DNA from: Halobacteriales archaeon YIM A00010
GTDB taxonomy: Archaea; Halobacteriota; Halobacteria; Halobacteriales; Haloarculaceae
NCBI GenBank assembly: GCA_025041175.1
Contig: JAKCFJ010000001.1
Span: 2,063,526 to 2,127,525 of the forward strand
Direction: 5' to 3'
Length of the DNA stretch: 64,000 bases
Part shown: piece by piece, positions 32,628-45,655 of the stretch
Layout: each line of letters starts with the position of its first letter
Numbering within the stretch: the first letter of the stretch is position 1
Notes under the pieces: model-generated
The model's database searches: none
What the model was told of the DNA's origin: nothing
What the model saw: only the letters and a program-made list of their open reading frames with translations
Position numbers and translations under genes: made by a program

Positions 32628-32799
32628 TCACCGAACAGGGTCGGGTCCACCGCTCGGGGTGAAACGCGGGCGGGTCCGGATACCACCGGGGATCTCGATG
32701 GACGACCCATTGCGGAGCACGATGGACGCGCCTGCAGGGACCTGATACCCCCGCATCACGACATCCTCCACTGGTTCGCGGTGGATGCGGTTCACAGAT
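32628..32799 (-). pseudogene. Cytochrome P450 remnant, frameshifted
   Basis: On the minus strand, frame one reads NRIHREPVEDVVMRGYQVPAG and frame two continues with PQWVVHRDPRWYPDPPAFHP and ERW. Together they align to the intact P450 around its PPWVVHRDPRWYDDPDAFQP segment, with a one-base shift between them. The rest is missing: the N-terminal side is cut by the BKACE gene, and the C-terminal side with the heme loop is replaced by the MITE. Confidence 0.85.
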
Positions 32800-33634
32800 C
32801 GAGGATATCCCGTGCTTGGTCGGGGGTGGCGACTTCGCGACCGAGTTCGTTGGCGACGCGGACGACCCGTTCGACGAGTTGGGCGTTACTCTCCGCGAGC
32901 TCGCCCCGCTGGTAGTAGACGTTGTCCTCGAGACCAACACGAACGTGCCCACCAAAGAGGATACCCATCGTCGCGAAGGGCAGCTGGTGCGGACCAAACC
33001 CGAGAGTATTGAAATGCGCGCCATCGGGGAGATTATCGATGGCGTTCAGCAGATTGCGTGGACGAGGGCGAGTCAGCGTCCCGTCACCGAAGATGAGCGT
33101 TGCGTACACGGGTTCCGCGAGTTCCTGCCGTTCGAGCAGGCTGTGAACTTCGTTCAGATGTCCATCGTTAAACACCTCTAACTCCGGTTTGATACCCCGC
33201 TCGACCATCTCCTCGTACAGCGCGTCGACCATCGCCCGCGTGTTCTCACTGGTCAGATGGTCGTACCGGTTCAGCGGCCCCATATCGAGGCTGGCCATCT
33301 CCGGCGACGGATCCGTCCGCAGCGGGAGATGCCGTTTCCCGGCCGGCGCACCGGTACCGCCCGTTGAATGTTGGATGATGACATTGTCGGCATACCGCTG
33401 CACCGCGTCGTCGATCTCCGCGAAGCGCTCGGTCGCGAATGATCGTTCGCCGTTGGGGCGGCGCGCGTGGAGGTGCACCACCGAGGCACCAGCCTCCTCT
33501 GCGGCCGCTGCCGCTCGGCCGATCTCCTCGGGCGTCTCCGGCAGGTTCGGGTTCGCCTCCGTCCCGTGAACGCCCCCGGTCAGCGCGGCGGTGACGATGA
33601 CCGGTTCACCCGCGAGAAACTCCTCGTAGCTCAT
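32792..33634 (-). CDS. BKACE-family beta-keto acid cleavage enzyme (DUF849)
   Basis: The 280-residue TIM-barrel enzyme has the family motifs TAALTGGVHG near residue 15, HLHARRPNG near 55 (two His ligands), and the C-terminal GGHVRVGLEDN. Members cleave beta-keto acids with acetyl-CoA, using Zn2+; the type reaction is 3-keto-5-aminohexanoate cleavage in lysine fermentation. The substrate here is unknown. It overlaps the start of the small Cys-containing gene upstream by ATGA, so the two are an operon. Its 3' end runs into the P450 remnant. Confidence 0.9.
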   Translation of the reverse strand: MSYEEFLAGEPVIVTAALTGGVHGTEANPNLPETPEEIGRAAAAAEEAGASVVHLHARRPNGERSFATERFAEIDDAVQRYADNVIIQHSTGGTGAPAGKRHLPLRTDPSPEMASLDMGPLNRYDHLTSENTRAMVDALYEEMVERGIKPELEVFNDGHLNEVHSLLERQELAEPVYATLIFGDGTLTRPRPRNLLNAIDNLPDGAHFNTLGFGPHQLPFATMGILFGGHVRVGLEDNVYYQRGELAESNAQLVERVVRVANELGREVATPDQARDILDL

Positions 33635-33894: not shown

Positions 33895-33990
33895 CGTAAA
33901 TGACCCTACCCTACTCGCTCGCGCTAGAGACGCTCACTCCTTGAGGGCGGGGCTTTGATGTGGACTCCCAGCAACCACTATGCAGCACTG
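33895..33990 (-). ncRNA. IS1341 right end and candidate omega-RNA scaffold
   Basis: Just past the tnpB stop the minus strand reads GCCCCGCCCTCAAGGAGTGA, then GCGAGCGAGTAGGGTAGGG, the conserved right end of haloarchaeal IS1341-type elements. In TnpB systems this end is transcribed as the guide scaffold, with guide sequence beyond about 33895. The exact ends cannot be fixed by eye. Confidence 0.5.
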
Positions 33991-35231
33991 TACTGCCCAG
34001 TGGAGCCGTTCAGCGTCCCACCATGTATACGCACATCTACGGGTGCGTCTCCACTCGACGACGTGTGCGACGAGCGGAGGCTGTGGTGTACGTTTCTGGC
34101 ATACCGGAGACCTACGTTCTTTGCTGCGTTGTAGTCGGCATCGACCGCATAGCCACAGTTCTGGCACTCGAAGTGCTGACCGTCACGGTTGCCCTCATGG
34201 GTAAAGCCACAATCCAGTCGGGAGCATCGTTGACTGGTGTGGTTCGGCTCAATCTGTTCGACTGCCACATCCTGCTCGGGGGCTTTGTAGCCGACGTACT
34301 CCTGGAGGCGGCGGAACGCCCAGATGTGGTACCAGTCCGCCCACGGAAGACGGTCACGAATGTTATCGAGGACTTCGAAGACAATGATGTCACACCCGGT
34401 CTCGACAGCCTCAGCGACGATCCCGTTGGCGACAGTGTGGAGGTACTGTTTCCGCCAGGCTCGCTCGCGCTTTCCGAGACGAAGCAGGCAGTTGTGGGCG
34501 GCCTGCGTTTCCTTCTGCTGCATGGCCGCTCGACGGTTCTCGAACTCTTCGATCCAGTGGTCGTACTCACCACCGTGCCAGAATCGTCCAGTGGAGGCAA
34601 CAGCGAGATTGTTGACACCGAGGTCAATACCGAGGACTGTTTGGTGCCCGGTATTGGGCGAACCATCTGTGTCGTGGTCCCTGTCGTACTTCCGAGTGCC
34701 GACATGGAAGTAAAACTCCTCCGTTACCCGGTCGTACTGTAGCGAACTGGTGCGAAATTCGTAGTCGTCGTTGGCGACATACTCCGAATAGGGCGTCTCA
34801 CGGCTGTCATCAGCCGGACAGACGTACTCACACTCGACACGTCCGTCGGGTGTCGCAAGGGAGACCATCTCGTCGTGGATGGTCGCTGCACGTTTGTCGT
34901 AGACAACACTCCACGAATCGAACTCCGGCTGAGAGACACGCTGTCGTTTCTTCCAGCGTTCAACACACCCTTTCACTGCCTCAACTGCACGCCGAATACC
35001 TTTCTCGACAAGGTTTGCATGGAGATAATCAGTCTCCTCTCGAAGTTCGTCGTACAGAGCTTTTTCTGCTGTGGCCTTCGAGGTAATACAGTCGTCGTAG
35101 TCGTATTTGTCCCAACAGTAGTCACAGGCTCTGTTCGCGCAGTAGAGAAATTGCTTAACAGTCTCGTGGAGGTCGTCGCGGCGCTCGTCCGGAACGTCGA
35201 GCTTAACGGGTGCTGTACGACGGATCTCCAT
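33978..35231 (-). CDS. tnpB: TnpB RNA-guided nuclease (IS1341-type, solo)
   Basis: The 417-residue protein has an N-terminal OrfB helix-turn-helix region, then a RuvC-like nuclease with Asp in LGIDLGVNN near residue 200, Glu in VFEVLDNIR near 283 and Asp in VDADYNAAKN near 367, and between the last two a zinc finger (CSRLDC, CQNCG). All catalytic residues are present, so it may be active. No tnpA is adjacent, as is common for IS1341 elements. The ATG at 35231 fits the usual start. The opposite strand carries a long spurious frame. Confidence 0.95.
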   Translation of the reverse strand: MEIRRTAPVKLDVPDERRDDLHETVKQFLYCANRACDYCWDKYDYDDCITSKATAEKALYDELREETDYLHANLVEKGIRRAVEAVKGCVERWKKRQRVSQPEFDSWSVVYDKRAATIHDEMVSLATPDGRVECEYVCPADDSRETPYSEYVANDDYEFRTSSLQYDRVTEEFYFHVGTRKYDRDHDTDGSPNTGHQTVLGIDLGVNNLAVASTGRFWHGGEYDHWIEEFENRRAAMQQKETQAAHNCLLRLGKRERAWRKQYLHTVANGIVAEAVETGCDIIVFEVLDNIRDRLPWADWYHIWAFRRLQEYVGYKAPEQDVAVEQIEPNHTSQRCSRLDCGFTHEGNRDGQHFECQNCGYAVDADYNAAKNVGLRYARNVHHSLRSSHTSSSGDAPVDVRIHGGTLNGSTGQYSAA

Positions 35232-35572: not shown

Positions 35573-36775
35573 ATGAGCGATCAGCAGCGACTCCGCTTCG
35601 AGTACAGTCCGAGCGTGCTCAGGTACGGTAGCGGCTGTGTCGACGATCTCTCAGCAGAACTCGCTACCCAGGGGTACGACCGTGCACTCGTCGTGTGTGG
35701 ATCCACGGTCGGATCCACGCCCGCAGTCATCGATCCAGTTACGGACGGTCTGGGAGAGAAACTGGCTGGCGTGTTCGCCGAGACGACACCGGAAAAGCAA
35801 CTCGAAACCGCCTACGATGGCCTCGAAGCTATGGAGACCCACGACGCTGATGTGCTCGTCAGCCTCGGTGGCGGGAGCAGTCTCGATGTCGCGAAAATCA
35901 TCAGCGTCCTCGCTGCTGACGACCGTGCCCCCCGAGATGTCGGTCACGAACTCGCCGAGACCGGGTCGATTTCCATCCCGTCAGATCCGGTACCGCCGAT
36001 CGTCGCCGTCCCGACGACGCTAGCGGGTGCAGATTTGTCTATCGTGGCGGGTGTGACTGCCGCACCGACGTCCGGACTCGTCGCCGAACCGGCCAGCGGC
36101 GGCATATCCGATCCGCGACTGATGCCCCAATCCGTCTTCTACGATCCGGAACTGTTCGCTACGACGCCCAAACGGATTCTCGCGGCGTCCGCGATGAACG
36201 GATTCGACAAGGGACTCGAGACAGTGTACGCTCGGAACGCGACGCCGATAACGGACGCAACGGCCACTCGGGGGCTCCGACTGCTCGAAGAGGGCCTCCG
36301 CCAACTCGGTGACCAGGCCGTAACCGAAGAGGTCCTCGAACCGGTCGTGGAAGGGATTCTCTTGGTCCAGTACGGGATTTCACGGCGCGGGGAAACGACG
36401 CTCTCGATCATCCACGCGTTCGGACACGGGCTGACTCGCACGTACGAGGTCCAGCAGGGAGCCGCACACGGTATCGTCGCCCCGCACGTACTCGAATACC
36501 TCTTCGAGAACGTCGATGGCCGGCGCGAGTTACTCGCAGAGGCGTTCGGTGTCGGTGACCGTCCTGACACAGCAGCTGCGATTGTCGAGTCTATAGAGCA
36601 GGTTCGAGACGCACTCGGCCTTCCCGCACAGCTCAGGGATGTCGACGGTCCCGACCCGGCTGAATTTCCTGCAGTGGCAGAAACGATCCGTACCGACTCC
36701 TTCATAGCGAACGTCCCACGTGGGCTGGATCCGACGACGGAGGAGATCGAGGCCGTGTTGGAGGACGCGTACTGA
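35573..36775 (+). CDS. Iron-containing alcohol dehydrogenase family protein
   Basis: The 400-residue protein has the nucleotide-binding GGGSSLDVAKI near residue 99, and two of the usual metal ligands in HAFGHGL near 280 and QQGAAHGIVAPH near 293. The first metal segment reads AMNGFDKGLET instead of the common AMDxxxHxxE, so the metal site is altered and the activity may differ. It reduces aldehydes or oxidises alcohols with NAD(P)H; maleylacetate reductases are related. A GGAGGT site precedes the ATG at 35573. The next gene is convergent. Confidence 0.85.
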   Translation: MSDQQRLRFEYSPSVLRYGSGCVDDLSAELATQGYDRALVVCGSTVGSTPAVIDPVTDGLGEKLAGVFAETTPEKQLETAYDGLEAMETHDADVLVSLGGGSSLDVAKIISVLAADDRAPRDVGHELAETGSISIPSDPVPPIVAVPTTLAGADLSIVAGVTAAPTSGLVAEPASGGISDPRLMPQSVFYDPELFATTPKRILAASAMNGFDKGLETVYARNATPITDATATRGLRLLEEGLRQLGDQAVTEEVLEPVVEGILLVQYGISRRGETTLSIIHAFGHGLTRTYEVQQGAAHGIVAPHVLEYLFENVDGRRELLAEAFGVGDRPDTAAAIVESIEQVRDALGLPAQLRDVDGPDPAEFPAVAETIRTDSFIANVPRGLDPTTEEIEAVLEDAY

Positions 36776-36895
36776 TGTGCGCCACGAGTACAGACGAAAC
36801 GTAGCCATCCGTCTGGCGCGGTGAATCCGAGGAAACGACTGGACGACTGGCAAAAGCCCCGGAACCAGACAACCCGGTACGAAAAAGCGATCGTC

Positions 36896-37534
36896 CTAGT
36901 CGACGAGTTCCGCAACCATCGTGGAGACGTGGTCGACTTCGTCTTGGTTGATGCCGTGACCCATCCCCTCGTAGAAGCGCTCGGTCACGTCGCCGTTGAG
37001 CTGCTCGAAGATGGTCGCCGATTCGTGAACCCGTTGTTCGGGAATGTGCGGATCGACGTCGCTGCAGCCGAGGAACACCGGCGTTGCTTCGAGGTCGCCG
37101 TCGAAATCGTCCGGATCGACGGTTTTACCGATGAGCCCACCGCTCAATACGGCGAGGCCACCGTAGCGCGTGGGGTTGCGCGCGACGAACTCGCTGGCGA
37201 GACACGCGCCTTGGGAGAACCCGAGCACCATGACGCGATCTGTCGAGAGTCCCGCCTCGTTGGCTTTCTCCACGGCATCCCCGATGGCCTGTAATCCAGA
37301 GGTCCGCCCGGGTTCGTTCGACTCGACGGGAGCGGTGAACGCGTTCGGATACCACGTGTTTCGAGCGGCCTGTGGCGCGAGATACGCGACACCGGGCTGG
37401 TGGAACTCGTCGGCCATCTGAACGATACTCTGTGCGGTCGCACCGCGTCCGTGAACGAGGACGAGCGCGGCCTCAGCGACATCGAGGGGTGCCCCGGCCG
37501 TCACGAGGGGTTGATCTTGGTGTGGTCCAGTCAT
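36896..37534 (-). CDS. MhqD-like phospholipase/carboxylesterase
   Basis: The 212-residue alpha/beta hydrolase has the oxyanion motif VLVHGRGATA near 25, the nucleophile elbow GFSQGA with Ser 107, an Asp in GCSDVDPHIP near 160 and His in GMGHGI near 192. In Bacillus, MhqD of this family is induced by quinones together with MhqO and MhqP. Here it follows the MhqO-like gene with 1 bp between them, and MhqP-like and HxlR genes adjoin. It acts in the cytosol; the true substrate is unknown in any organism. Confidence 0.88.
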   Translation of the reverse strand: MTGPHQDQPLVTAGAPLDVAEAALVLVHGRGATAQSIVQMADEFHQPGVAYLAPQAARNTWYPNAFTAPVESNEPGRTSGLQAIGDAVEKANEAGLSTDRVMVLGFSQGACLASEFVARNPTRYGGLAVLSGGLIGKTVDPDDFDGDLEATPVFLGCSDVDPHIPEQRVHESATIFEQLNGDVTERFYEGMGHGINQDEVDHVSTMVAELVD

Positions 37535-37535
37535 C

Positions 37536-38483
37536 TTAGCTCGCCCCTGCTATAGTGGCCGTTTCGATTTCAGGAAGTCGTTCTTCGAGCATCGTCCTAT
37601 CACTCTCTAACCACGGCGGCAACGTTAACTCCGTCCCCAGATCCGAGGCGGACTCATCGCGAGTGAATCCCGGTCCCTCGGTTGCGAGCTCGAACAGAAT
37701 GCCGCCCGGCTCTCGGAAGTAAATCGACTTGAAGTACTGCCGATCCTTTTGGGGCGTCACGCGGAGCCCGATGTCCGAAAGTGGCTCGCGCCACTCCTGT
37801 TGGGTCTGGGTATCGGGCGTCCGGAACGCGACGTGGTGAACGGTTCCGACGCCCTGCTGGCCTCGCGGCGCATCCGGCCGATCGAGAACGTCGATCACCG
37901 AGGCGCGAGGACCGGCTGTCTTGTATCGCGTCCGGTCGCCATCCTGTGCGGTTGATTCGTATCCTACCGTCTCGAGCACGGTGCTCGTCTGCTCGGGGGT
38001 GAGGGAATCCAGCGTCACACTGTGGAACCCACGGATGGCGTTGTCTGCGGGTACTGGTCCATGGGTCCACGGCTCGATGTCACTCGTTCCAGTTACGAGT
38101 TCCAACGGCTGGCCGTCGTGATCGTAGAACGGGACGACTGTCTCGTCGAACCGGGTGTGTGGCGTATCGATGTCGACATCCTTCGATTCGAGCCGGTCGA
38201 CCCAGTAGTCGACTGACCCTTCAGGAATGATGAACGCGGTTGCGCTCGTCTGCCCGCGACCGACGCGGCCCTGTCGAGCGCCCTCGAACGGGAAGAACGT
38301 CAACACAGTACCAGGATTGCCAACCTCGTCACCGTAGTAGAGGTGGTACGTGTATTTGTCGTCGAAGTTGACGGTTCGCTTGACGAGGCGCAGCCCGAGG
38401 ACTTCCGTGTAGAAGTCCACGTTCCGCTGTGGATCACTCGCGATGGACGTTACGTGGTGGAGTCCGTCTGTTTCGGTAGTCAT
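37536..38483 (-). CDS. MhqO-like ring-cleaving dioxygenase (VOC family)
   Basis: The 315-residue protein contains two vicinal-oxygen-chelate domains (about 5-140 and 150-285). Metal ligands are visible as GLHHVTSIA near residue 9, TVHHVAF near 219 and GILFELAT near 271. This matches the family to which Bacillus MhqA, MhqE and MhqO belong, which are thought to open quinone or catechol rings. The ATG at 38483 is chosen because it begins the first VOC strand. The gene is in an operon with the DoxX-like gene upstream and the hydrolase downstream. Confidence 0.92.
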   Translation of the reverse strand: MTTETDGLHHVTSIASDPQRNVDFYTEVLGLRLVKRTVNFDDKYTYHLYYGDEVGNPGTVLTFFPFEGARQGRVGRGQTSATAFIIPEGSVDYWVDRLESKDVDIDTPHTRFDETVVPFYDHDGQPLELVTGTSDIEPWTHGPVPADNAIRGFHSVTLDSLTPEQTSTVLETVGYESTAQDGDRTRYKTAGPRASVIDVLDRPDAPRGQQGVGTVHHVAFRTPDTQTQQEWREPLSDIGLRVTPQKDRQYFKSIYFREPGGILFELATEGPGFTRDESASDLGTELTLPPWLESDRTMLEERLPEIETATIAGAS

Positions 38484-38544
38484 GTGTTGTTGTGGTGTTT
38501 TTGTTCGAAAATCTATTCTCGAAGGTCGAGCGTTTCTCGGCCGA

Positions 38545-38967
38545 TTAGAGCCCGAGACCGACGCCCAGCGCGTACGCCCAGGATTCACTGCTGAGGACGA
38601 GGAAGACCAGCGACGCGCCGAGGAGCTCGACGTTCTTGATGAAGTTCGTCATCTCGGCCTGCTGCTGGTCTTCGGGCACGGCCCAAAAGTTGTGCATCAT
38701 CGGCGTCGTAACGAGGAGGAAAACCGCGATCGCCCCGGCGGCAATCGCAGGGAACGCTCCGAGTACGATGCCAAGCCCGCCGAAGATGAGCACGCCGCCG
38801 GACAGCAGGACGCTCGCCCGGGCTGCGGGGACGCCCTTCGATTGGGCGTACCCGCTCATCGCGTCGGCATTCTGGAAGTGGTTGAGTCCCTGGAACGCGA
38901 GCAGGCCGCCGAAGAGCACCCGCGCGACGAGGAAGACGACCGCACCGAGTCCTGCATCGATCGCCAT
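38545..38967 (-). CDS. MhqP-like DoxX-family membrane protein
   Basis: The 140-residue protein has four membrane helices and the DoxX features RVLFGGLLAFQGLNHF near 16 and GGVLIFGGLGIVLG near 57. DoxX proteins are membrane components of thiol or quinone redox systems; MhqP in Bacillus belongs to this family. It is the first gene of the three-gene operon and starts 230 bp from the divergent HxlR gene. The 61-bp gap to the MhqO-like gene is short enough for co-transcription. Confidence 0.9.
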   Translation of the reverse strand: MAIDAGLGAVVFLVARVLFGGLLAFQGLNHFQNADAMSGYAQSKGVPAARASVLLSGGVLIFGGLGIVLGAFPAIAAGAIAVFLLVTTPMMHNFWAVPEDQQQAEMTNFIKNVELLGASLVFLVLSSESWAYALGVGLGL

Positions 38968-39031
38968 TATCGACTCACCTCCTGCGTCTGGGACTGATCG
39001 GTGTGCAGTGCAAGCAGTGGTGTGATCGTAG

Positions 39032-39159
39032 CTGGTATCACGACGTTAGTTAGTTCGTTCTGGAACTTACTTATATCTAATCTGATACCAGTGATACCAG
39101 GGGATGTCGGTGTTAGCCGGTGACAGCGGTGTTACTTTAGGTTTCATAACGATACCTGG
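39032..39159. promoter_or_regulatory. Repeated TGATACCAG motif in the divergent promoter
   Basis: TGATACCAG occurs twice in tandem at 39083-39100, once inverted at 39032-39040 (CTGGTATCA), and once as CGATACCTGG at 39150-39159. A TTATAT box for the DoxX-like operon lies at about 39071-39076. Four copies in one promoter are unlikely by chance and probably form the operators of the HxlR regulator. Confidence 0.6.
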
Positions 39160-39197
39160 TTCGGAAGAGAACCTATTAAGGGATCCAGCGCATATGG

Positions 39198-39554
39198 ATG
39201 ACCAAGCGCAGACTAATGGCTCAAGCAAACAGACTGTCCGAAGCTGATGACCGGTACGACGAGGAGGCGTGTTCGGTTATCGATTCACTGAACCAGATCG
39301 GCTCACAGTGGCGACTCATCGTTCTCCACGACCTCCAGGACGGTGAAAAACGTTTCAACGAACTCAAACGCTCGACTGGAGCAAGTTCACGAACCCTCTC
39401 TCGGGTCCTCGACGATCTACAGGAGACCAAGTTCATTGACCGGCGACTCGAAGAAGACGCCCCCGTCGCCACATACTACTCGCTCACCGAGAAAGGACGG
39501 TCACTCTGTCCAGTCTTCGAAGAAATCGAAGCCTGGTCTGAGGAATGGCTGTGA
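39198..39554 (+). CDS. HxlR-family regulator with YodB-like sensing cysteine
   Basis: The 118-residue protein is one HxlR winged helix (IGSQWRLIVLHDLQDGEKRF, then SRTLSRVLDDLQE and YYSLTEKG). Its only N-terminal cysteine, in DEEACSVIDSL (Cys 25), lines up with Cys 6 of Bacillus YodB, which quinones and diamide modify to release DNA. A second Cys lies near the end (LCPVFEEIE). It is divergent from the Mhq-like operon and probably its repressor. A later ATG at 39216 is an alternative start. Its stop lies in a strong terminator. Confidence 0.9.
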   Translation: MTKRRLMAQANRLSEADDRYDEEACSVIDSLNQIGSQWRLIVLHDLQDGEKRFNELKRSTGASSRTLSRVLDDLQETKFIDRRLEEDAPVATYYSLTEKGRSLCPVFEEIEAWSEEWL

Positions 39555-41882: not shown

Positions 41883-41985
41883 CAGAAGAGCGTACCAACA
41901 TGCACGATAAAAATATGACCGGTCGATGCCATCGAACATCGTCTCCTCGGAGAGATCCCATGATCCTCATCAGAGAGCTGATTCC

Positions 41986-42918
41986 ATGAAGGCCGTCCGT
42001 ATGCACGAGTTCGGCGACCCACAAGTCCTCACGTATGAGGATGCTCCACGGCCCGAGCCAATGGACGAAGAACTGTTAGTACGCGTCCATGCTGCTGGAG
42101 TGAATCCACTGGATAGGAAGATTCGGCAGGGAGGTCCTCTACCGATGATTCCGGATGAGCCGTTTCCACTCATTCTTGGAACAGACGTCTCTGGGGTTGT
42201 CGAAACCGTTGGGGAGGCTATCACAGACTTTGCCCCCGGCGATGCCGTCTTTGGGTGGAGCGGATTCCCTTCATCGGGATCTTATGCCGAGTACACAGCG
42301 ACGGCTGCCGCACAACTCGCTCCGAAGCCAACGTCTCTGACTCACATTGAAGCTGCTGGAGTCCCAGGAGTAGCGAGGACTGCGTGGCAGGCGCTCTTCG
42401 AGGCAGCAGAACTCACAGACGGCCAGCGTGTGTTGATTCATGGCGCCGCAGGCGGCGTCGGGCATATGGCCGTCCAACTAGCGAAGTGGACAGATGCATA
42501 CGTTATCGGCACAGCATCCGGGTATAACGAGGGATTTCTCCGGTATCTCGGCGTCGATGAGTTCGTAAATTACCGAACACAACGCTTTGAATCGGTGGGA
42601 ACGGATATCGATGTCGTGCTGGATACGGTCGGCGGTGAAACCCAAGACCGGTCCTTCGAAGTCTTGAAAGAAAACGGGATACTTGTATCCACGATACATG
42701 AGCCGTCAGAAGAACGAACAGCCGACGCTGGTGTCAGAGGACAGATGGTGCCCCCCCGAGATCCATCGCTCCTTAGCGACATCGCCGAGCTGATTGACGC
42801 TGGAGACGTGCGACCGACCATCAGCACTCAGCGACCACTCGTGGAGGCATCTGAAGCCCACCGTGAAAATGAGGGATCTCATGCCCGTGGGAAGGCCGTT
42901 CTCCGTGTGCTGAGTTAA
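41986..42918 (+). CDS. MDR-type NADP-dependent quinone oxidoreductase-like protein
   Basis: The 310-residue protein is a zinc-free medium-chain dehydrogenase. The GroES-like part has AAGVNPLDRKIRQG, and the cofactor site is HGAAGGVGHMAVQLAK near residue 150. It lacks the catalytic zinc Cys, as in quinone oxidoreductases. These enzymes reduce quinones or enones with NADPH, which fits the nearby Mhq-like operon. ATG 41986 starts the usual MKAV. The C-terminus, SHARGKAVLRV, is the normal family end. Confidence 0.9.
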   Translation: MKAVRMHEFGDPQVLTYEDAPRPEPMDEELLVRVHAAGVNPLDRKIRQGGPLPMIPDEPFPLILGTDVSGVVETVGEAITDFAPGDAVFGWSGFPSSGSYAEYTATAAAQLAPKPTSLTHIEAAGVPGVARTAWQALFEAAELTDGQRVLIHGAAGGVGHMAVQLAKWTDAYVIGTASGYNEGFLRYLGVDEFVNYRTQRFESVGTDIDVVLDTVGGETQDRSFEVLKENGILVSTIHEPSEERTADAGVRGQMVPPRDPSLLSDIAELIDAGDVRPTISTQRPLVEASEAHRENEGSHARGKAVLRVLS

Positions 42919-43711: not shown

Positions 43712-45655
43712 ATGGAGTCTCAGTCAACAACAGGAGATTCGGAATCAGTCTTCGACCTTCGATGGGAGTCGTCGTACGACTTCAACAATTATTCTGCTGA
43801 CGACAGGCATGACGACCGCTTCCGATTTTCGCTCCACTATGTTGGGTCAGCAAGTGACGATCCGACCGTCGCAGCGGTGATCGGGAGTCTCTCCGTTGAT
43901 CCGGCTCTTCCCGACGCACGCGCCACGTGGCACCGCAACTATACGCCGCTCGCTCCGTGGATCAGAGCGCACATCCTCAAGCAGGCGATGGGCTGGAACG
44001 GCGAGACACACCTCGCCGACTACTTCGAGGAGCATCCGGAGTTGACGGTGGAATACGGGTTCAACAACGATGATCTGGTAGCGGAGCCGAAGCGAATGCG
44101 TCCGACACCGCCGACACAATCCCGACTCTGGGAGATGTGGCACGAGGAGTTCAGCGATGACCTCCAAGCTATCTGTTGTGAGGTAGCGTCCGAGCTTGTC
44201 ACCCTATTGCGTGAAGAGGGCATCCCCACCCCTGATGATGTTTTTCAGCCCAGCGACAAGCAAGACATCTCGGAGCAATCAGTAACACGCCTCATCGCCG
44301 ATACGACCAAGGACGTCTGGCAGCACGCCAAGCCGTTTGTCACCGAGGAGTTCTTCTTGAAACGCGGCGACAACGCTCAGATTCACGAAAACGCGTTCTG
44401 GGAGCAACACGCGTTCATGGGCGTCCGCAAGAACATGTTCGCAGAAAGCGGGGCAGACAGTTTCTACGTCGATTCGACCCGTGAGAGAACGCCATCTGGG
44501 TCGACGCACCGCTGGCAAATTCGCAAGCTCACGGTCAACGAAATGCGCCGACAGCATCGTCGCACCACGAAGCGGCTCATCGAACGGGCACGACGCGACG
44601 GTGAACTCGTTGGCAAGCTATGGGCCGCGATCGATGTGACGAAGGGTGTACCGTTTACCGGCGAGATGGACACCGACACGAAGGGCAACGTTGTCGAGCC
44701 GTACATTCTCGGCCATCGGGACGGCAACTACTACTATCAGTGGGCAAGCATCCAGATCGTCGGCCACGATATCCCGCTCGTACTGGACGCACTGCCGAAA
44801 GAACGCGGGATGACGAAAGACGAGATCGTGGATGAATTACTGGGTCATGCGACTGAGATGGTCGACGACATCAGCCTCGTGCTGATGGACCGAGAGTTCG
44901 ATAGCGATCCGGTCAAAGATATCTGCGAGGAGTATGGGGTATATTCCCTGAATCCAAAGCGGAAATTCGCCGCCCAGAACGACACTATCGCCGAGATGAA
45001 ACAGAACGGTGAAATGATCCGTATCGTCGAACAGTCACCCGAGGACCAATCGAACCGAACGCATCTCTTCCTGCCCTCAACAACGGAGATGCCGGACGAA
45101 GAGACAGCAGCCGAGACGGAGAGGGACCCCGATCGCAACGAGCGGCCGAACTACCGACAGGAGATGTGCGAGGAGTTGGGAATCGATGAGGCGGAGCTTG
45201 GCGAGGAAATCTCTCCGCTGGCCCGCTTACTCAGCGACCTCCGTGGCGAAGATGAGGATCTGGAGACAACAGACGCCGACGGTGACGGCACGGGGTTCGT
45301 GGTGTTCCAGACCAACCATCCGTTCGTCTCAGCGTGTGATGAGAGCGGCGAGCCATACGACGACCGCGAACGCATACACATGGTTGCACGCCTGATTCGG
45401 TGGTACCGCCATCGATGGGGCATCGAGAACGGCTACAAGAAAATCAAGACGTTCATGGTCCGGACGACCTCGACCTGTCCGCGCTACCGCTTTTTCAACT
45501 TCATGTTCGCGTGTATCCTGTACAATACGTGGAGGCTGGTCGACCTGCTCGTCAAACTCGCGCTGACGGAGCACCCTGATTACTCGCCCCGCGTTGATGC
45601 CAACCAATTCGTGACGATAGCAAAGCAGTACTACGGTCTCGATCCACCAGACTAA
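43712..45655 (+). CDS. IS4-like DDE transposase (complete, 647 residues)
   Basis: The protein has a DDE nuclease core with Asp in AAIDVTKGVPF near residue 305, Asp in VLMDREFDS near 390, and the YREK-type signature RWYRHRWGIENGYKKIK near 563-580 that gives the catalytic Glu. A helical DNA-binding region precedes it. An acidic insertion (about 455-540) lies between the last two motifs. It is full-length and may be active. I could not identify terminal inverted repeats in the flanking sequence by eye; the 273 bp downstream have no gene. A fragment of a relative lies at 50041. Confidence 0.9.
   Translation: MESQSTTGDSESVFDLRWESSYDFNNYSADDRHDDRFRFSLHYVGSASDDPTVAAVIGSLSVDPALPDARATWHRNYTPLAPWIRAHILKQAMGWNGETHLADYFEEHPELTVEYGFNNDDLVAEPKRMRPTPPTQSRLWEMWHEEFSDDLQAICCEVASELVTLLREEGIPTPDDVFQPSDKQDISEQSVTRLIADTTKDVWQHAKPFVTEEFFLKRGDNAQIHENAFWEQHAFMGVRKNMFAESGADSFYVDSTRERTPSGSTHRWQIRKLTVNEMRRQHRRTTKRLIERARRDGELVGKLWAAIDVTKGVPFTGEMDTDTKGNVVEPYILGHRDGNYYYQWASIQIVGHDIPLVLDALPKERGMTKDEIVDELLGHATEMVDDISLVLMDREFDSDPVKDICEEYGVYSLNPKRKFAAQNDTIAEMKQNGEMIRIVEQSPEDQSNRTHLFLPSTTEMPDEETAAETERDPDRNERPNYRQEMCEELGIDEAELGEEISPLARLLSDLRGEDEDLETTDADGDGTGFVVFQTNHPFVSACDESGEPYDDRERIHMVARLIRWYRHRWGIENGYKKIKTFMVRTTSTCPRYRFFNFMFACILYNTWRLVDLLVKLALTEHPDYSPRVDANQFVTIAKQYYGLDPPD

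Follow-up and report, generated by a model that had tools for sequence, protein, structure and literature searches.

Does the gene cluster found in a 64,000-nucleotide stretch of DNA from the Halobacteriales archaeon YIM A00010 (hereafter the window) encode a haloarchaeal response to quinones and other electrophiles? A preliminary description had read the cluster as an archaeal counterpart of the Bacillus Mhq/YodB quinone-stress system. We computed its gene content and linkage, a conserved upstream element, the distribution of that element and its co-loss with the regulator, and the conservation of key residues. The earlier interpretation as a whole was partly supported, and the best explanation overall, to which we give a probability of about 0.6, is that an HxlR thiol-switch regulator controls electrophile detoxification genes through the conserved element.

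The gene cluster and its protein families

All four reading frames were found where the preliminary description had placed them, and its layout of minus-strand DoxX, VOC and hydrolase genes divergent from an HxlR gene agreed with the Pfam matches and ORF positions (Table 1). The VOC and hydrolase genes are separated by 1 bp and the doxX and VOC genes by 61 bp, so that the three likely form a single operon. The stem-loop and T run at its end is a weak terminator candidate from a consensus scan only; a scan for sigma-70 promoters has no bearing on archaeal DNA.

Table 1. Features of the cluster and of its neighbours (window coordinates).
Feature	Position	Strand	Evidence or remark
BKACE (beta-keto acid cleavage enzyme)	32792-33634	-	Pfam 1.7e-86
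Fe-ADH-family protein	35573-36775	+	Pfam; convergent with operon
Candidate terminator at operon end	36891-36906	-	Stem-loop and T run
doxX-VOC-hydrolase operon (likely)	38967-36896	-	Divergent from HxlR gene
Hydrolase	36896-37534	-	Pfam Abhydrolase_2 5.9e-20
MhqO-like VOC, two-domain glyoxalase/dioxygenase, candidate ring-cleaving	37536-38483	-	PDB 3oaj match
DoxX membrane protein, MhqP/CatD-like by family, first operon gene	38545-38967	-	PF07681 (DoxX) 2.2e-11
Full element copy at doxX promoter	39035-39115		Model R1, score 26 bits; E 2.5e-5 over the 6-Mb genome
TATA-like TTATAT of doxX	39071-39076		Within full element copy
Half element copy at hxlR promoter	39141-39182	+	R1 E 4.8e-4 in the 6-Mb genome
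HxlR/DUF24 regulator, 118 aa, Cys25 and Cys104	39198-39554	+	PF01638 6.1e-22
MDR quinone-reductase-like gene	41926-42918	+	PIG3 model 193 bits, below cutoff of 297

Comparison of the VOC protein with solved structures showed that its best relative was MhqO (3oaj; 296 bits, 4.6e-87, over the full length), ahead of a B. cereus glyoxalase-family protein (191 bits) and PcpA (4huz; 185 bits), which bears out its description as MhqO-like. The metal-site motifs LHH, VHH and LFE are kept; their HH, HH and FE residues align with 3oaj and 4huz over the full length and are conserved in 54 VOC homologs, and the putative metal ligands are His10, His217 and the Glu of ILFELAT. The protein has the two domains and the 2-His-1-Glu site of the MhqO/PcpA ring-cleaving dioxygenases.

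The best solved relative of the hydrolase was a Dyadobacter carboxylesterase (4h0c, 3.5e-50). The protein is Abhydrolase_2/dienelactone-hydrolase-like, with Ser107 of GFSQG, the Asp and the His conserved in 45 homologs, and its counterparts in Halococcus and Haladaptatus are annotated as "dienelactone hydrolase family". The earlier label of MhqD-like held in general kind only, as the protein scored 24.5 bits against the NCBIfam MhqD equivalog model, for which the cutoff is 325. The DoxX domain of the first operon protein was above threshold, and the proposed likeness to MhqP stood at the family level.

The HxlR domain of the regulator scored 77.7 bits against a Pfam gathering score of 20.8, and the best solved relative was YodB (5hs7), followed by HypR and HxlR. 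Cys25 was invariant in the orthologs in which this position was aligned (98/98), and Cys104 was present in 76 of 101 orthologs. The preliminary description had aligned Cys25 with the sensing cysteine of YodB; in the alignments with the structural relatives it lines up with Cys14 of HypR and the N-terminal cysteine of HxlR, but the local alignment to YodB starts downstream of it. The quinone sensors YodB, QsrR and CatR have an N-terminal reactive cysteine (Cys5/6/7), and such a cysteine is general in HxlR proteins, including HypR and B. subtilis HxlR, so that Cys25 says nothing on which electrophile is sensed. In YodB, Cys101 and Cys108 form an intersubunit disulfide; counterparts of these two were absent from the regulator, which ends at the matching helix and whose only other cysteine, Cys104, is located elsewhere. 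Because Cys25 is generic and no C-terminal pair is present, quinones, thiol oxidants and aldehydes are all candidate signals; the enzyme content favours quinones.

It is unlikely, in our estimation, that the cluster serves a HypR- or HxlR-like response to thiol oxidants or aldehydes (hypochlorite, disulfide stress, formaldehyde), in which the VOC protein and the hydrolase would act on other electrophiles. Haloarchaea do encounter hypochlorite and methylglyoxal, and the match of Cys25 to the HypR and HxlR cysteines would suit such a response. So would an observation in H. volcanii, where hypochlorite tolerance rose after a transposon had inserted upstream of a glyoxalase-like gene (PMC6267482). 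The VOC protein, however, clearly belongs with the ring-cleaving MhqO/PcpA enzymes and not with glyoxalase I.

Distribution in Halobacteria and the conserved promoter element

Of the 341 Halobacteria genomes, 324 had an ortholog of the regulator (E<=1e-25), in most cases as a single copy. Among 56 HxlR loci from many genera, picked by the regulator alone, a DoxX, MhqO-like VOC or hydrolase gene was located upstream and divergent within 3 kb in 40 and no such divergent neighbour was found in 16, while these genes were upstream in the same direction in none and downstream in five. The divergent arrangement is far above chance. DoxX was divergent from HxlR in 24 of the sampled loci, and the divergent sets comprised DoxX alone, VOC-hydrolase, DoxX-VOC or all three; synteny across haloarchaea held for the divergent linkage, but the exact three-gene operon is one arrangement among several. 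Plasmids of Haladaptatus halobius, Haladaptatus pallidirubidus and Halococcus dombrowskii carry the four-gene block with protein identities of 83-93%, whereas the best VOC proteins of same-genus genomes were only ~55% identical to that of the window; horizontal acquisition of the window copy is therefore probable. Across 120 sampled Halobacteriota genomes, MhqO-like VOC proteins were, among the matches listed, confined to Halobacteria.

K-mer enrichment on 67 hxlR upstream regions yielded a pair of blocks, GTTACCTGGT and ACCAGGTAAC, strongly enriched around a BRE/TATA-like core within a conserved element of ~83 bp, a predicted promoter/operator. The half-sites occurred in 52 and 43 of the 67 regions, compared with 7-9% of random 350-bp stretches, and the spaced pair in 26 of 67 compared with 0.8%. 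The exact paired pattern had no site in this genome and was present in only 4 of 292 genomes; because it was too rare, we built a profile, R1, trained on 33 loci with the window and its close relatives left out. R1 recovered a full copy at the doxX promoter and a half copy at the hxlR promoter, the latter holding GATACCTGGT at 39151, with one mismatch to GTTACCTGGT. A GGTATC/GATACC repeat in the window was rejected as the operator, being not conserved across loci, and the 83-bp element as a whole showed no significant dyad symmetry (r 0.36 versus a permuted maximum of 0.30 +/- 0.05).

The 6-Mb genome contained four R1 matches with E<1e-3. Besides the two in the window, one (C3:613920-613996) immediately precedes an MhqO-like paralog with 54% identity, and one (C3:761244) adjoins a VOC gene together with an HxlR fragment that carries a frameshift; a fifth match (E 0.57) preceded a third HxlR copy. 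The strongest element copy of the genome was that at C3:761244-761323, beside a 204-aa VOC gene. The frameshift-broken HxlR copy near C3:761700 has fragments 83% and 89% identical, and an MhqO-like VOC gene in pieces, apparently a pseudogene, was seen at C3:770655-771180.

An R1 match was found in 270 of 292 haloarchaeal genomes (67 of 76 genera), with two or more in 159, while none was found in the 11 genomes of this set that have no HxlR ortholog. The Fisher p of this co-absence, 2.6e-14, ignores phylogeny and genome size, and the co-loss is partly trivial, since the main copy of the element is in the hxlR promoter itself. The informative part is the loss of unlinked sites alone; its chance in the 11 genomes was ~1e-4 by a simple rate that ignores phylogeny and genome size.

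Model R1 takes in BRE/TATA-like sequence, so that the conservation of the element is not all operator. Even so, it is highly improbable that the element is nothing more than the strong core promoter (TFB/TBP) of hxlR and related genes, with HxlR acting elsewhere or on an unrelated signal, because GTTACCTGGT and ACCAGGTAAC are enriched outside the TATA sequence, and because the element has few copies per genome, belongs to one functional gene class and is gone where the regulator is absent. The conserved element appears to tie the HxlR regulator to these genes, presumably through binding by HxlR.

Predicted regulon and mode of action

We classified 40 better-scoring unlinked sites in 22 other genomes, using Pfam on one representative per class and similarity for the others. 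All 40 adjoined redox/electrophile-type or HxlR-paralog genes: DoxX (11), VOC (7, two of them MhqO-like), the same hydrolase (2), an HxlR paralog alone or with an SDR or NAD-binding gene (8), LUD (5), NmrA (4), nitroreductase (2) and a pyridine-nucleotide/flavin oxidoreductase (Pyr_redox; 1). Plasmid pHME505 of Haloferax mediterranei carries an HxlR/VOC/VOC/hydrolase/DoxX cluster with two sites, one between HxlR and the VOC-VOC-hydrolase operon and the other before doxX. The divergent HxlR gene there is E6P09_RS15545, and the plasmid has an HxlR paralog, RS16370. A further site, in Haloferax lucentense, lies before pirin-dioxygenase-hydrolase genes. These predicted target families parallel the YodB, QsrR, CatR and MhqR regulons, in keeping with the proposed Bacillus-like quinone-stress system.

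HxlR paralogs divergent from an SDR gene (five loci) have a similar element with its own spacing, which suggests a second related regulator system. LUD-domain proteins, to which no role is assigned, carry operator-like half-sites in several genera.

The MDR gene does lie 2.4 kb from the cluster, as had been described, and was dropped from the system because it carries no operator and its linkage to the cluster is not conserved. A 647-aa, transposase-like ORF (43712-45655) is found past it in a lower-GC stretch.

Fe-ADH was found beside the block in two Haladaptatus loci and near VOC/HxlR in four more, and BKACE recurred close to VOC or HxlR at about nine further loci. A TnpB-type RNA-guided nuclease gene (33978-35231) is located between BKACE and Fe-ADH, and its insertion may have split a larger cluster. 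Fe-ADH matched maleylacetate reductases more weakly than other Fe-ADHs and was rejected as such a reductase, as the His172/Lys238 pattern is missing from an alignment to the reference made by eye. All its homologs read NGFDKxxE and IIHAFGH; because NGFDKxxE, at the usual Asp/His ligands, is constant in the haloarchaeal homologs, Fe-ADH may represent a distinct subfamily.

These neighbours raise the alternative, which the preliminary description had not considered, of a catabolic unit, in which the VOC protein would cleave hydroquinones, Fe-ADH and BKACE would feed the product into central metabolism via a maleylacetate/3-oxoadipate-like route, and HxlR would sense a nutrient. The relation of the VOC protein to the PcpA-like hydroquinone dioxygenases, the resemblance of BKACE to the NCBIfam 3-oxoadipate:acetyl-CoA acetyltransferase (207 bits, cutoff 350) and the recurrence of both neighbours speak for this reading. 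We nevertheless doubt it, because no R1 site was found upstream of Fe-ADH or BKACE in this genome, because the sites elsewhere adjoin nitroreductase, NmrA and flavoprotein genes rather than ring-hydroxylating or transport genes, and because Fe-ADH has no maleylacetate-reductase His/Lys pattern. Fe-ADH is probably outside the regulon.

Under the preferred reading of an electrophile-responsive HxlR system, HxlR would regulate transcription locally and in part globally, most likely as a repressor, binding the element at its own promoter and at detoxification-gene promoters. The element in the window would control the doxX-VOC-hydrolase operon and hxlR itself and, elsewhere in the genome, at least one more MhqO-like dioxygenase. 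From the TATA-like sequence, doxX transcription is expected to start near 39045, which the operator half at 39035-39057 would cover, and repression is favoured for this reason. Quinones, catechol-derived quinones or thiol oxidants would modify Cys25, the modified repressor would leave the DNA and the operon would be expressed. The dioxygenase would then cleave (hydro)quinones or the adducts these form with thiols, the hydrolase would process the ring-cleavage product and DoxX would act as a membrane redox partner. Binding, repression, signal, cysteine switch and substrates are here predictions from sequence.

More tentatively, at somewhat below even odds, the system may be a nearly class-wide, ancestral haloarchaeal electrophile/quinone regulon, with one HxlR repressor, its own thiol switch (Cys25, possibly together with Cys104 from the other subunit), paired operators flanking the TATA of divergent promoters, and detoxification genes probably of bacterial origin but under archaeal promoters.

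To our knowledge, few thiol-based regulators have been described in archaea. The claim that no haloarchaeal quinone or electrophile response of this kind had been described agrees with our search, which found no account of an HxlR quinone response in haloarchaea in the literature covered, mostly papers outside subscription. If the signal is confirmed experimentally, archaea would have their first described electrophile response of this kind, and bacterial detoxification logic (a DUF24 regulator with ring-cleaving dioxygenases) would work with archaeal promoters. The near-universal element and the coherent target set make the question testable in Haloferax mediterranei, where pHME505 carries the whole cluster.

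Comparison with known systems

The archaeal regulators OxsR, MsvR and SurR, which sense redox by cysteine, are likewise winged-helix proteins, but they belong to the TrmB or ArsR families and have other targets; PMC9426492 names no HxlR-type archaeal thiol-based regulator. RrpA and RrpB share the DUF24 superfamily with the regulator, which is far under their curated NCBIfam cut-offs (RrpB, NF047364, 62 bits against 175; RrpA, NF047367, 42 bits against 185).

MhqP is a DoxX protein, MhqR is a repressor of the MarR type that presumably binds its ligand without a thiol switch, and catDE encodes a dioxygenase together with CatD, of the DoxX family. The catDE genes are a bacterial parallel (PMC6212828); YodB, CatR and QsrR control dioxygenases, nitroreductases and quinone reductases, and MhqR controls MhqE and MhqD (PMC6798810). 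Like the MhqR regulon (mhqNOP, mhqED, mhqRED), the cluster combines an MhqO-like dioxygenase with a phospholipase/carboxylesterase-type hydrolase, in the MhqED pattern, and a DoxX protein; it differs in that the regulator is of the HxlR/DUF24 and not the MarR type, and in that the hydrolase falls short of the MhqD model.

With the YodB, QsrR and CatR systems of Bacillus and Staphylococcus it shares an HxlR-domain regulator with an N-terminal cysteine and predicted targets that include ring-cleaving VOC dioxygenases, a nitroreductase and flavin/quinone-type reductases. As in YodB/QsrR-type regulons, operator-like sites (the R1 matches), which HxlR would bind, are located at these targets. Unlike those systems, the haloarchaeal one has an archaeal promoter with an operator of GTTACC(T)GGT type, a regulator that is divergent from its target and has no YodB-like C-terminal cysteine pair, and sites that extend to LUD, NmrA and SDR genes.
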